Shown piece after piece: positions 11,326-15,765 of a stretch of DNA of 64,000 bases. Location: the NCBI RefSeq assembly GCF_028737255.1, contig NZ_JAQZAN010000022.1:1-64000 (forward strand), written 5' to 3'. The stretch's first letter is position 1. Every line of letters begins with the position of its first letter. The stretch comes from Actinomycetospora straminea (GTDB lineage: Bacteria > Actinomycetota > Actinomycetes > Mycobacteriales > Pseudonocardiaceae). A model generated the notes under the pieces. That model was not told the origin of the DNA and did not search any database. It saw nothing but the letters and a program-made list of their open reading frames with translations. Both the position numbers and the translations under genes were made by a program.

Positions 11326-13953
11326 GTGGCCGAGCGCAACGTGTCCGCGACGGGGACCCGCCGGTCCGCCCGGTGGGCTCCGGTGCGCTGGCGCGTCCGC
11401 ACGAAGGTCGTCGCCGTGGTGGCGGTGCCGATCGTGCTGGCCCTGGTCCTGGCCGGACTGACCATCCGGACCCAGCTCGCGCAGCGGAGTGCGCTGGAGC
11501 AGGTCGCGACGGGCACGCGGTTGAGCGCCACGGTCGCGGGTCTCGTCGATCGGCTCCAGGTCGAGCGGACCGCCACGGCCGCCTACGTCGCGGCCGGCCG
11601 CGGGCCGGACCGGTCACTCCTCGACACCGTCGCGGAGGACGTCGACCGCGCGGTGGCGGACCTGCGTGCCGAGGGCGACGCGGTGGCCGACCTCGACGCC
11701 GGCGTGCGGGACCGCTACGCCGGGGCGCTCACGCGTCTCGACGCCCTGCCTGCCCTGAGGACGACGGCGGTCGCGACCCGCTACCCCGCGACGAGCGTCG
11801 TCGTCGGCTACACGGGCATCGTCGAGCCGATGCTCGCCCTCTCCCGTGACATCGCCGGCGCGGTGGGCGAGCCCTCGGTCGTGCGCCCCGCCACCAGCCT
11901 GGCCGCGCTCGGCCGGGCCAAGGAGCAGGCCGAGGTCCAGCACGCGCTGCTGCTCGTCGGGGCGACGACCGGGGCCCTGCCCGTCGGCGCCGGTGACGCC
12001 CTGCGCGGGGCGATCGCCGAACAGGAGGCCGCGACCGCCGAGTTCGAGGCGGGCGCGACCCCGGCGCAGGTCCAGCTGTTCGACGACACCGTCGCCGGGC
12101 CGGAGATCGACCAGCGGGTCCGCATCCTGCAGACCGCGCTGATCCGCGACGCCGACCGACAGGCGCTCGCGGTCGACCCGGTCGCCTGGGACCGCGCGGC
12201 GGGGACCACCCGGGAGGCGCTGCGCACCCTGGAGAACGTGCTGTTCGGCGAGCTCCGGGCCACGGCCGACGAGCTCGTCTCGCAGGCCGGCACCACGGCC
12301 GCCGTGGTGATCGTCCTGGTGGTCCTCGCCGTGCTCGCCGCGGTCGCGCTGGCCGTGCTCGTCGCCCGATCACTGATCACCCCGCTGCAGCGCCTGCGCT
12401 CGTCCGCGCTCGACGTCGCCGACAGACGGCTCCCCGACGCGGTCCGTGTCCTCGACGACGAGGGGGTGCGCGAGGGGGGCACGCCGGAGGACACCGTCGA
12501 GCCGGTGCCGATCGACACCGAGGAGGAGGTCGGCGAGGTCGCCCGCGCGTTCGACCGCGTGCACCGCGAGGCCGTGCGGCTCGCCGGGGAGCAGGCTCGG
12601 CTGCGGACCAACCTCAACGCCCTGTTCGTCAACCTCTCCCGCCGCTCCCAGGGCCTCGTCGAGCGCCAGATCCTGCTCATCGACACGCTGGAGAACCGGG
12701 AGGAGGACCCCGACGTCCTCGCCGACCTCTTCGCGCTCGATCACCTCGCCACCCGCATGCGCCGCAACGGCGAGAACCTGCTCGTGCTCGGCGGCGCGAC
12801 GCCGTCACGGGGGACCGCCGAACCGCTGCTGCTGGTCGACGTGATCCGGGCCGCGGTCGGCGAGGTCGAGCAGTACCAGCGCATCGAGGTGGGCAAGGTG
12901 CCCGGCCTGCGCGTCCGGGGGGCTCCGGCCGACGACCTCGCGCACCTGCTCGCCGAGCTGCTCGACAACGCCACGGCCTTCTCCCCGCCCGACCGACCGG
13001 TCACCGTCAGCGCCTCCCGCGCGCCCGACGGTGGCGCGATCGTCGAGGTGGCCGATCAGGGCCTCGGCCTGGACAGCGAGGATCTCGCCGACGCGAACGC
13101 CCGCCTCGAGCAGCCCGTGCTCCTCGACGCCTCCGTGCCGCGGCAGATGGGCCTGTTCGTGGTCGGCGCGCTGGCCCGCCGCCACGGGATCACCGCCCGC
13201 CTGCTGCCCGGCGACGGCACCACCGCGAGCGTCCACGTCCCCGCGGCGCTGCTCGTCGCCCCCGAGCCGGCCGAGCAGACCGAGCCCCCCGAGCCCGCCG
13301 GCCCGGCGCTCGCCGGCCGTGCCCCCGCCCCCGACGCCCCCGACGCCCCCGACGCCCCCGACGCCCCGGACGCCCCGGACGCCCGGGACGACCCGGACAC
13401 CCCGGACGACCCGCTGACCGAGGACGTCCCCCTCCCGCCCGCCGCGAGCAGCGACGAGCCGATCTTCGAGGCGATGTGCTCGGCCTGGTTCGTCGACGCC
13501 CACGCAGGCAGCGCTCCGGACCACGACGGCACAGCCGGCGACACGGCCGGCGACCCGGCCGAGCTGTGGCGCTCGGCCGGCGACGAGGGCTGGAACGCCG
13601 TCGCCGCGCGCGCCGCGGAGCCCGCACCCACCGAGCACACCGAGGCCGGCCTGCCCCGGCGCCGCCGAGGTGCCGGGCTCGTGCCCGGGGCCGCCGCCGG
13701 GACGGCCGCTCCGACGGCATCGGAGGCCGGGCCGGACGACGTCCCCACGCCGCGACGCACCGTCGACGCCGACGTGCTGCGGGAGCGCATGAGCCGGCTC
13801 CAGCAGGGCACGAGCCGGGGCCGTGACGAGGTCGACACCGACGGGTCCGAGGTGCCGGAGGTGCCGGCGGCGCGCGCCGGGGGCAGCGACGACGGCTCCG
13901 TCGTCACCAGCTCGGCGGGCCCGACCGGCGGGGACGCGGAGGGATCGCCATGA
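11326..13953 (+). CDS. Conservon-type sensor histidine kinase with NIT-like extracellular domain
   Basis: 875 residues from the GTG at 11326, which has a G-rich ribosome site; the frame is open upstream to 11149 but that part is low in information. Membrane helix 1 is at about 28-49, an extracellular nitrate/nitrite-sensing-type helical domain (RLQVERTATAAYVAAGRG) at 50-320, and helix 2 at 324-348. A HAMP-like linker, a dimerisation/phosphoacceptor segment (LDHLATRMRRNGENLLVLGG) near 465-490 and a GHKL ATPase with N-box LAELLDNATAF at about 540-640 follow. Residues 640-875 are disordered, with Asp-Ala-Pro repeats. They hold the tail motifs EPIFEAMCSAWF, AGLPRRRRGAGLVPGA and LRERMSRLQQG. This is the CvnA component; its stop overlaps the roadblock gene by ATGA. 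Confidence 0.9.
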   Translation: MAERNVSATGTRRSARWAPVRWRVRTKVVAVVAVPIVLALVLAGLTIRTQLAQRSALEQVATGTRLSATVAGLVDRLQVERTATAAYVAAGRGPDRSLLDTVAEDVDRAVADLRAEGDAVADLDAGVRDRYAGALTRLDALPALRTTAVATRYPATSVVVGYTGIVEPMLALSRDIAGAVGEPSVVRPATSLAALGRAKEQAEVQHALLLVGATTGALPVGAGDALRGAIAEQEAATAEFEAGATPAQVQLFDDTVAGPEIDQRVRILQTALIRDADRQALAVDPVAWDRAAGTTREALRTLENVLFGELRATADELVSQAGTTAAVVIVLVVLAVLAAVALAVLVARSLITPLQRLRSSALDVADRRLPDAVRVLDDEGVREGGTPEDTVEPVPIDTEEEVGEVARAFDRVHREAVRLAGEQARLRTNLNALFVNLSRRSQGLVERQILLIDTLENREEDPDVLADLFALDHLATRMRRNGENLLVLGGATPSRGTAEPLLLVDVIRAAVGEVEQYQRIEVGKVPGLRVRGAPADDLAHLLAELLDNATAFSPPDRPVTVSASRAPDGGAIVEVADQGLGLDSEDLADANARLEQPVLLDASVPRQMGLFVVGALARRHGITARLLPGDGTTASVHVPAALLVAPEPAEQTEPPEPAGPALAGRAPAPDAPDAPDAPDAPDAPDARDDPDTPDDPLTEDVPLPPAASSDEPIFEAMCSAWFVDAHAGSAPDHDGTAGDTAGDPAELWRSAGDEGWNAVAARAAEPAPTEHTEAGLPRRRRGAGLVPGAAAGTAAPTASEAGPDDVPTPRRTVDADVLRERMSRLQQGTSRGRDEVDTDGSEVPEVPAARAGGSDDGSVVTSSAGPTGGDAEGSP

Positions 13954-14369
13954 GCGCCACGGAGACGTTCGACAGGTTCGGCTGGCTGATCGACGACTTC
14001 GTCGCCCGGGTGCCCGGCGTCGCGCACGCCGTCGTCATCTCGGCCGACGGTCTCCTGCTGACGCACTCGAGCCACCTGCCCGACGAGCGGGCCGACCAGT
14101 TGGCCGCCGTCGCCGCCGGGCTCGTGAGCCTGGCGGACGGCGCATCCCGGTGCTTCGACGCCGGGGGCGTCGTCCAGACGGTCGTGGAGATGGAGCAGGG
14201 CCTGGTCCTGACCATGGCGATCCGTGACGGGTCGTGCCTCGTCGTCCTGGCCACGGCGGGCTGCGACCGCGGGCTCGTGGGCTACGAGATGACCCTCATG
14301 GCCGCGCGCGTCGGGAAGGCCCTCACCCCCGAGGTGCGCCAGGAGCTGCGCACCGCGCGGGCGACATGA
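13950..14369 (+). CDS. Roadblock/LC7 (MglB/CvnB-like) protein
   Basis: 139 residues. It has the roadblock fold pattern: FGWLIDDFVARVPGVAHAVVISADGLLL, then LAAVAAGLVSLADGA, VVQTVVEMEQGLVL and CLVVLATAGCDRGLVGYEM. In conservons and in MglAB, this dimeric protein acts as a partner and GTPase-activating factor for a small Ras-like GTPase. The start overlaps the kinase stop (ATGA) and the stop overlaps the DUF742 start (ATGA), so translation is coupled. No Ras-like GTPase gene is found in this cluster. Confidence 0.93.
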   Translation: MSATETFDRFGWLIDDFVARVPGVAHAVVISADGLLLTHSSHLPDERADQLAAVAAGLVSLADGASRCFDAGGVVQTVVEMEQGLVLTMAIRDGSCLVVLATAGCDRGLVGYEMTLMAARVGKALTPEVRQELRTARAT

Positions 14370-14722
14370 CCGCCGGCGCCGGGTCGGGGCGCCGCGCTCC
14401 CCGGGTCCGCCCGTACACGATCACCCGTGGCCGCACGCGGACCCACGCGGAGCTGGCCCTGGAGACGCTGGTGCACACCGCGACCGGGCTCGACGTCCAC
14501 GCGGCGGAGCTCACCCGGGAGCAGCGCGCGATCTGCCGGCTGTGCGTCGACCCCGTCTCGGTCGCGGAGGTCTCGGCGCGGGCCGACCTCCCGCTCGGCG
14601 TCGCGCGGGTCGTGCTCGACGACATGGCCCGGGACGGCCTCGTCGTGCTCCACGAGGCGTCGACCGACAGGCCGAGCCTCGCGCTGATGGAGAGGGTGCT
14701 CCATGGGCTCCAGCGGCTCTGA
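14366..14722 (+). CDS. DUF742 (CvnC-like) winged-helix protein
   Basis: 118 residues with the DUF742 order: VRPYTITRGRTRTHAELALETLV, then LTREQRAICRLCVDPVSVAEVSARADLPLGVARVVLDDMARDGLV as a winged-helix unit, ending LMERVLHGLQRL. The final helix (normally LLERVLxGLxxL) is the family hallmark. CvnC proteins bind the other conservon components and may bind DNA. In standard conservons the GTPase gene (cvnD) starts by overlapping this end; here the ATG at 14703 overlaps, but the frame after it does not encode a GTPase. Confidence 0.92.
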   Translation: MTAGAGSGRRAPRVRPYTITRGRTRTHAELALETLVHTATGLDVHAAELTREQRAICRLCVDPVSVAEVSARADLPLGVARVVLDDMARDGLVVLHEASTDRPSLALMERVLHGLQRL

Positions 14723-14814
14723 GACCACGGGGCGACGGCGTCATCCCGCCCGCGCCCCGGCCGGTCGCGCGCCCGACACCGGTCCCCACCCGCCGACCAC
14801 CGACGGAGACCGTC

Positions 14815-15765
14815 GTGCACGTCGAACGCGCCGAGCTCGAGCTCGAGACCCTGATCGCCCGCCTGGACCGCCGGGAGCTCGATCCCCCCGCCGACCCGCC
14901 CTCCGGCGGCTGGGACCGGGCCCGACAGCAACGCTTCGTCGACACGGTCCTGCGCCAGTGGTGTGTACCGGAGATCCACGTCGCCGACGGGGGCGACCGG
15001 GACGTCGTGCTCGACGGTGGCCAGCGGCTGCTCGCCCTGGCGCTGTTCTTCCACGACGAGCTCCCCTGCGCGGGCGAGCAGGCGCCACGCCGGGACGAGG
15101 TCGCGCGCCTGGACGGGCTCTGCTTCAGTGACCTGCCCGGCGACGTCCGCCGGCGCGTGCGCCGCTTCCGCATCCCGGTGGTGCTGCTCTCGGACTACGA
15201 GCCCGCGGAGCTCCGGGAGCTGCTCGACCGCCTGCACCCGACGGACGAGCCGGCCGTCCCGGTGCCGTCGCCGCGGGCACCCGAGCCCCCGCCGGACACC
15301 CGGCCGTCCGGCAGCCACCGCGCGCCCGCCTCCCCCGAGCCGATCTACGACCAGGTGTCGGCCTGGTTCGCCGACCTCTCCGAGTACCGGGACGTGTCCT
15401 CCTGGCGGGCTGACGGCGCGCCGGGGTGGACCTCGCCGGCCGACGAGGGCCGGGCCGCCGCCGAGGTCGTCGCGCAGGTCGCCGACGGCCCCGATCCCGA
15501 CGTCCTCGCGGGCACCACGCCGGCGGGGCTCCCCCGACGCGAGCCGCGAGCCCTGCTCGTGCCGGGCGCGGTGCCGCCGCCCCCGGCCGCGCCGTCCACG
15601 TTCGGGGAGAGCCGGGGTACGGCCGCGGCGGTGGGCGAACGCCTCGCGAGCTACCGGGACGGCGTCGCGGAGGGCGGCGACGGTGCGCGCCCGACCGGGG
15701 CCGATGACCCACACCCGTTGTTCGACGACGGCGCCGGGTCCGCGGTCCCCTCCTCGAGGCCCTGA
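14815..15765 (+). CDS. DUF262-like (ParB/GmrS superfamily) protein with kinase-like C-terminal tail
   Basis: 316 residues from the GTG at 14815 (GGAG 6 nt upstream). Residues about 5-130 follow the DUF262 N-domain plan. ETLIARLDRRELDPP is the entry helix, WDRARQQRFVDTVLRQWCVPEIHV matches the usual W-x-R-Q-x-x-L-I-x-S-I/V-L-x-x-x-x-I-P-x-I segment, D67-G-G-Q-R71 fits the nucleotide-handling DGxQR motif, and CFSDLPGDVRRRVRRFRIPVVLL fits the usual F-x-D-L-P...I-x-V-x-I/L segment. After about residue 145 a Pro-rich linker leads to EPIYDQVSAWFADL (from 175), AGLPRREPRALLVPGA (from about 236) and VGERLASYRDG, the same three motifs in the same order as the kinase tail. It occupies the position of the conservon GTPase. 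The last 115 nt overlap the convergent MFS gene. The DUF262 assignment is by motif reading and should be tested. Confidence 0.72.
   Translation: MHVERAELELETLIARLDRRELDPPADPPSGGWDRARQQRFVDTVLRQWCVPEIHVADGGDRDVVLDGGQRLLALALFFHDELPCAGEQAPRRDEVARLDGLCFSDLPGDVRRRVRRFRIPVVLLSDYEPAELRELLDRLHPTDEPAVPVPSPRAPEPPPDTRPSGSHRAPASPEPIYDQVSAWFADLSEYRDVSSWRADGAPGWTSPADEGRAAAEVVAQVADGPDPDVLAGTTPAGLPRREPRALLVPGAVPPPPAAPSTFGESRGTAAAVGERLASYRDGVAEGGDGARPTGADDPHPLFDDGAGSAVPSSRP

Follow-up and report, generated by a model that had tools for sequence, protein, structure and literature searches.

A DUF262-Like Protein with a Sensor-Kinase-Type Tail at a Conservon of Actinomycetospora straminea

The last gene of a conservon in Actinomycetospora straminea encodes a protein in which a reduced domain of the DUF262 family is joined to the C-terminal tail of conservon sensor kinases (CvnA). 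The reading favored here, at a probability somewhat below one half (roughly 45%), is that this protein is a conservon accessory protein of a new class, which would be tethered by its kinase-type tail to the roadblock/GTPase switch. The gene lies in a stretch of 64,000 nucleotides (contig NZ_JAQZAN010000022.1, positions 1 to 64,000), called the window below, and its product belongs to one of two paralogous types: type A at conservons, to which it belongs, and type B elsewhere in the genome.

Some extra conservon proteins have already been named: CvnE (a P450), CvnF (a GAF protein) and MfpA. CvnE and CvnF are the products of additional conservon genes; CvnF8 stimulates its own kinase, to which it binds (PMC13343842). 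In the same source, the CvnB homologue MfpD acts as a GAP and MfpC is likely a GEF for the GTPase, and the way in which CvnA kinases pass the signal to the roadblock/GTPase switch is treated as an open question. The literature searched contained no report of a conservon protein combining DUF262 with the tail, and nothing there connected Actinomycetospora with conservons or conservons with IS110; DUF262 and roadblock proteins met in a single review, on restriction systems.

The Conservon Locus and Its Lost GTPase Gene

Pfam matches place the kinase (NIT, HAMP and HATPase domains), roadblock and DUF742 genes of the window in conservon order, followed by the DUF262-tail gene as the last one (Table 1). 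The start of the DUF742 gene overlaps the roadblock stop codon. The gene after the DUF262-tail gene runs in the opposite direction; it is a convergent MFS gene whose frame shares 115 bases (15651-15765) with the end of the DUF262 gene. The corresponding two genes of A. succinea (L044) do not overlap.

Table 1. Coordinates of the features of the conservon locus in the window
Feature	Position	Strand	Basis
CvnA-type sensor kinase	11326..13953	+	Pfam NIT E 2.8e-43, HATPase_c 7e-11, HAMP 1.7e-4 (HAMP under the Pfam cut-off)
Conserved CvnA tail module of the kinase (WF box, GLPRR/LPxR box, LVPG, last box)	13459..13824	+	Profile E 3.1e-28, the window kinase row being part of that profile's training set
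Roadblock/LC7 protein (CvnB, MglB type)	13950..14369	+	Pfam PF03259 E 5.6e-25
DUF742 protein (CvnC)	14366..14722	+	Pfam PF05331 E 1.2e-29 on frame 14234-14722
5' remnant of the conservon GTPase gene cvnD	14703..14729	+	blastn flank match to two relatives stops at 14729
60 unaligned bases replacing 764 bp of two relatives	14730..14789	no strand	blastn coordinates
3' remnant of the relatives' small ORF	14790..14814	+	blastn flank match restarts at 14790; ORF read in L044, L045, L046
DUF262-tail protein (type A), 316 aa	14815..15765	+	ORF, Pfam; start matches that of relatives
Reduced DUF262 domain, ParB/Srx fold	14815..15246	+	Pfam, hhalign, model pLDDT 90.6, Foldseek
DGGQR motif, residues 67-71, at the DGQQR site of DUF262	15013..15027	+	
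Proline-rich linker; length varies between relatives	15247..15336	+	
CvnA-type tail module of the DUF262 protein	15337..15693	+	Tail profile
LPxR motif of the tail (LPRR, residues 239-242)	15529..15540	+	L, P, R invariant in 10/10

The Ras-like GTPase gene (cvnD) is missing at the window locus, which the earlier sequence-only reading of this DNA had overlooked. It is present in A. succinea (G010), A. lutea (G011) and strain NBRC 106375 (G012), where the genes run in the order kinase, roadblock, DUF742, GTPase, small ORF and DUF262-tail. In blastn comparisons with the first two of these genomes, the matching flanks end at 14729 and resume at 14790, and 764 bp in both relatives are reduced to 60 bp. 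The window has thus lost its conservon GTPase gene and the small ORF by deletion. Conservons that have lost the GTPase were described earlier (PMC4316618). The window genome contains two further conservons, each with a GTPase.

In all three other intact type A loci, the DUF262-tail gene follows cvnD with one small ORF between them. This ORF (L044 8928-9170, L045, L046 9326-9574) encodes, as judged by eye, one hydrophobic segment and has a proline-rich end; it overlaps both neighbors in L044 and at least the start of the DUF262 gene in L046.

Type A thus resembles CvnF and CvnE in the three relatives: it is an additional gene behind cvnD and has no transmembrane kinase part. It differs from them in that DUF262 takes the place of a GAF or P450 domain, neither of which was found in the Pfam scan, and in carrying the CvnA tail. 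A further difference lies in the kinase: CvnE and CvnF occur overwhelmingly with kinases that lack a NIT domain (PMC13343842), whereas the window kinase has one. The position behind cvnD is also that of MfpA, the fifth gene of the mycobacterial mfp conservon; unlike the DUF262-tail protein, MfpA is a pentapeptide-repeat DNA mimic and is confined to Mycobacteriaceae (PMC13015309).

The N-Terminal DUF262 Domain

The N-terminal domain has the ParB/Srx fold and belongs to the DUF262 family, in agreement with the DUF262/GmrS-type plan proposed from the letters. The Pfam family PF03235 (GmrSD_N) matched residues 33-81 of the window protein with an E-value of 4.4e-5 and 24.1 bits, which is under the cut-off of 33.2; the relatives scored 32.8 (L045), 22.8 (L046) and 24.9 bits (L052). 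Alignment by hhalign of ten family members with 27 ordinary DUF262 domains gave a probability of 99.9 and an E-value of 2.3e-34 over 139 columns. A phmmer search of the window protein against PDB sequences gave no match; profiles A8 and A4 reached the DUF262 entries 7p9k, 9jfl and 20yv.

The structure model of the domain had a mean pLDDT of 90.6 and a pTM of 0.83 with a 44-row alignment, 34 rows of which were ordinary DUF262 relatives; the model from the ten family rows alone was poor (pLDDT 65). The Foldseek comparison returned ParB/Srx-fold proteins with probabilities up to 1.00, none of them at E 0.001. ParB with CTP or CDP was at the top (E 4.3e-3), closely followed by PadC, Noc and KorB; BrxU, a GmrSD enzyme, ranked 15th, and Srx and SspE were also among the matches. 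For ParB and PadC, which are CTP-binding ParB-fold proteins and the best structural matches of the model, the likeness appears to be one of fold only.

The published motifs of GmrS are QR, I/VDGQQR and FxxxN (PMC4619093). The fusion protein shares with the DUF262/GmrSD_N proteins (GmrS, BrxU, SspE, NsnA) a homologous domain of ParB/Srx fold and the D-G-x-[QE]-R pattern, but QR and FxxxN are lost, DGQQR is altered, the C-terminal half is absent and an HNH nuclease was not found. The QR pair occurs in none of the ten members vs. 31 of 34 relatives, FxxxN in 0/10, and exact DGQQR in 0/10 vs. 19/34. At the last site, the form DG-x-[QE]-R is realized as DGRER in six members (all six of type B), DGGQR in two, DGAQR in one and DGHER in one, with D, G and R kept in 10/10. 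The DUF262 part stops near residue 144, and ordinary relatives continue with more DUF262 sequence; the fusion family lacks this C-terminal half together with two of the three motifs. Of the segments singled out earlier, D67-G-G-Q-R71 and C-F-S-D-L-P are both found in the 316-residue frame, and the upstream W-x-R-x-Q-x-R-F-V segment is present in the form WDRARQQRFV, one residue longer than claimed. Loss of the QR pair, with DGGQR or DGGRR, was also seen in another DUF262 group, which is encoded by frames of 412-436 aa (L064, L065 and L066) and comes from three further genera of the family.

The domain had been described as NTP-using, for which these motifs provide no support. In SspE, the arginine of the DGQQR motif is required for GTP hydrolysis (PMC13251355). 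Because the motifs are eroded and that arginine is needed for hydrolysis in SspE, binding of a nucleotide by the domain is possible, and NTP hydrolysis is doubtful.

Among PADLOC profiles, the best match was NsnA (E 4.1e-12, residues 2-133), as might be expected of a defense protein of the NsnA, GmrSD or SspE kind placed under conservon control, with the G-protein system as its trigger. Such a role is very improbable: the match covers only positions 45-175 of the 385 in the profile, so that the C-terminal half of NsnA is absent; no GmrD/HNH nuclease part was found, the Pfam scan of the window protein giving GmrSD_N only; and DGQQR is not intact.

The CvnA Tail Module

The claim that the DUF262 protein and the kinase share a C-terminal tail holds. 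EPIYDQVSAWF, AGLPRREPRALLVPGA and VGERLASYRDG are all found in the former, and EPIFEAMCSAWF, AGLPRRRRGAGLVPGA and LRERMSRLQQG stand in the same order in the latter. Twenty-eight stretches of other genera, located with a seed profile (A5) containing DUF262 tails, served to build a tail profile. It gave the window DUF262 protein 60.6 bits (E 1e-17 in a small test set, residues 176-287), vs. 7.2 bits for the best of 1000 shuffles of the same protein. The window kinase reached 85.9 bits with this profile and all ten DUF262 fusion proteins 54.8-67.1 bits.

The tail is not peculiar to this pair of proteins but is the general tail of CvnA, a point that the sequence-only reading had missed. It was matched in 165 of 298 sampled genomes of the order. 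A kinase catalytic domain lies upstream of it in 19 of the 28 stretches, none being seen within the fetched part of the other nine, and a roadblock gene on the same strand follows 62-1310 bp downstream in 25/28. In 17 of the 28 stretches, the module occurs twice (L105-L132; also seen in L018), which is expected of a docking element. No Pfam or NCBIfam family matched the tail as a named domain. A C-terminal extension with an LPxR motif was described for conservon kinases (PMC4316618); it is the same module, found there on kinases and here on non-kinase proteins. According to PMC13015309, actinobacterial CvnA homologues show no notable conservation in their longer C-terminal part.

Distribution and Origin of the Fusion

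The fusion was found in 6 of 18 Actinomycetospora genomes, three of the 18 being less than 85% complete, and both paralogues were found in this genus only. Type A stands at a conservon in four genomes (the window genome, G000, with G010, G011 and G012), so that the expected recurrence beside conservon genes is borne out in three further genomes. It does not extend to type B, which accounts for six of the ten members and lies behind an enoyl-CoA hydratase gene in the same four genomes as well as in A. cinnamomea (G005) and A. lemnae (G008). No conservon gene was present within the 20 kb fetched around each type B gene (6/6). The nearest conservon roadblock gene is approximately 32-37 kb away in all six genomes (L052 9271-10371; G000:C44 177727). 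The type B site of G002, G017 and G004 contains no such gene.

Searching with the DUF262 N-terminal domain gave matches in 73 of 390 genomes of the family. The tail was sought on these more distant relatives in 34 loci, of which 24 came from the 67 matching genomes outside the genus and 10 from another search; neither the tail nor a roadblock gene was seen within the fetched stretches (0/34), and the idea that DUF262 relatives elsewhere carry the tail was dropped.

The domains of types A and B form one clade (support 98), and so do their tails (support 91); the two groupings together indicate that the fusion arose once and was then duplicated. Copying of the tail from the neighboring kinase was rejected, since a midpoint-rooted tree of a short alignment places the DUF262 tails of types A and B together and away from those of kinases (support 91). 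The species tree from type B-locus proteins is poorly resolved, and no order of gain and loss is claimed.

Decay of the Type A Locus and Constraint on the Protein

G002 contains a fifth type A conservon, in which the frames of the kinase, the roadblock and the DUF742 protein are open. Its GTPase frame is shifted near the P-loop (L193 7337-8360), where a sequencing error is possible, and its type A DUF262 gene is broken, with the start and the tail left in different frames. The type A system is therefore decayed in two of five genomes (the window and G002), which counts against an important role of the type A locus. The DUF262 frame of the window is still open despite the loss of cvnD.

Pairwise dN/dS ratios (Nei-Gojobori, not branch-specific) between the window and A. 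succinea were 0.29 for the DUF262 domain, 0.41 for the tail and 0.36 for the neighboring kinase. Across the 11 pairs computed, the domain gave 0.23-0.57; the linker (66 sites in these comparisons) exceeded 1 in three pairs. Thirty of the 154 columns of the domain are invariant across both paralogues. These columns, together with the ratios, point to constraint on the DUF262 domain itself.

The fusion might be a neutral passenger with no conservon role, sitting in a type A locus that is decaying. The position of type B outside conservons, the GTPase lost from the window and the two broken frames of G002 are what such a passenger would leave. It is quite improbable nonetheless, given a tail that does not derive from the neighboring kinase and the conservation of both tail and domain in the two paralogues of six genomes at dN/dS below 1. 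Alternatively, the DUF262 domain could be an inert carrier, and the free tail would only titrate the partner of the kinase as a decoy. The eroded motifs (neither QR nor FxxxN in any member, DGRER throughout type B) and the broken gene of G002 are consistent with this; the constraint on the domain argues against it and makes a decoy improbable.

IS110-Like Proteins with the Same Tail

Ten shorter tail-bearing frames were fetched as a sample. Seven of them encode another protein, unrelated to the above, with the tail; the other three were read as kinase parts, one of which was checked in Pfam. Of seven members of this second family scanned, one passed the Pfam cut-off for DEDD_Tnp_IS110 (L241, 33.0 vs. 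29 bits), L238 gave an E-value of 0.11 and five gave no match; a PDB search with the family profile returned nothing. The N-terminal domain of these IS110-like proteins was matched in 293 of 300 genomes of its family, a different one from that of the DUF262 fusion. Members are found at L134 (3614-5580), L135, L141, L142, L202-L228 and L232-L243. They resemble the DUF262-tail proteins in combining a DNA-enzyme-type domain with the CvnA tail, and differ in the N-terminal domain.

In the 30 best-scoring IS110-like loci, 21 of which come from one genus, the tail was present in 30/30 and a roadblock gene directly downstream in 27/30. Two of the three misses (G762 and G745) were confirmed by longer stretches, and the third is L231. 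Twelve larger loci, two of them re-read from the 30, had the tail in 12/12, a roadblock gene directly downstream in 4/12 and some roadblock gene in the stretch in 11/12; conservon genes were nearby in nine, and L233 had neither a conservon nor a roadblock gene. Over the 40 distinct loci, a roadblock gene lies directly downstream in 31. Eight of the nine without it belong to the 12-locus set, and seven of these eight adjoin a convergent conservon, L233 being the exception. The same arrangement was seen in L136-L138, all three of which adjoin a convergent conservon and have no roadblock gene of their own directly downstream.

Eight loci with their own roadblock gene were read with 5.5-10 kb of context. 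Other conservon genes occur in five of them; in L134, L239 and L241, no other conservon gene was seen in that context. In a tree with 18 conservon roadblocks, the eight roadblock proteins included from directly behind IS110-like genes all fall into one separate clade (support 100). Actinobacteria are reported to have a small clade of orphan MglB proteins whose genes lack conservon neighbors (PMC4316618). The two may be the same clade, which fits part of the neighborhoods only.

All ten DUF262 tails, and likewise the IS110-like members in two alignments (of 6 and 8), keep the LPxR motif unchanged. This would suit a tail that is catalytic for the GTPase, in which case CvnD would receive the LPxR arginine in trans as a finger and the DUF262 protein would be an alternative soluble GAP subunit. 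PMC4316618 remarks, cautiously, on this arginine, since Group 2 MglA and MglB have no conserved arginine finger. A catalytic tail is nevertheless rather unlikely: the window has lost its own cvnD and kept the DUF262 gene open, and three of the eight IS110-like/roadblock loci read with context have no GTPase gene in the stretch.

Proposed Role of the DUF262-Tail Protein

That both tails of the window locus dock on a shared partner, as suggested earlier with the roadblock or DUF742 protein in mind, is a reasonable inference. The comparative data lean to the roadblock protein (CvnB) over the DUF742 protein because 31 of the 40 IS110-like loci have a roadblock gene of their own immediately behind the tail gene, in some cases with no other conservon gene seen in the stretch. 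Contact of the tail with the roadblock is likewise suggested by the roadblock being the commonest neighbor common to the kinase, type A and IS110-like tail genes. Other conservon genes lie within a few kb in 5/8 own-roadblock loci, so that the DUF742 protein or the GTPase may also be the partner. The order of tail and roadblock could, moreover, be inherited from a duplicated cvnA end together with cvnB.

In the favored reading of a conservon accessory protein, the CvnA tail, to which the proline-rich linker joins the DUF262 domain, would dock on CvnB, the GAP of the system. There, the protein would share or compete for the site of the kinase and thereby alter the CvnB/CvnD switch, to which it would provide a second, soluble input. 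The DUF262 core would serve as a scaffold or a sensor and might bind a nucleic acid or a nucleotide, with hydrolysis at best inefficient. Where this cvnD is gone, as in the window genome, the protein would have to work through CvnA/CvnB or on the GTPases that the two further conservons encode. Counted against the accessory-protein reading are type B lying away from conservons, the IS110-like loci without a direct roadblock gene, the decay of type A and the NIT-bearing kinase.

A broader proposal, tentative and on balance doubtful, is that actinobacterial G-protein systems use the CvnA tail as a portable input plug. Besides kinases, it would wire domesticated DNA-enzyme domains (DUF262 in Actinomycetospora and IS110-transposase-like in another family) to roadblock proteins, including the separate clade behind the IS110-like gene, and would so provide these systems with kinase-independent signals.

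Significance

The presence of the CvnA tail on two unrelated non-kinase families marks it as a module that could be produced and assayed by itself. Being shared with sensor kinases, the tail suggests a portable plug that would link unrelated proteins to the conservon G-protein system, and the proteins that bear it are candidate partners of the roadblocks in the separate clade. Domains of defense or transposase type have here been recruited beside signaling genes.
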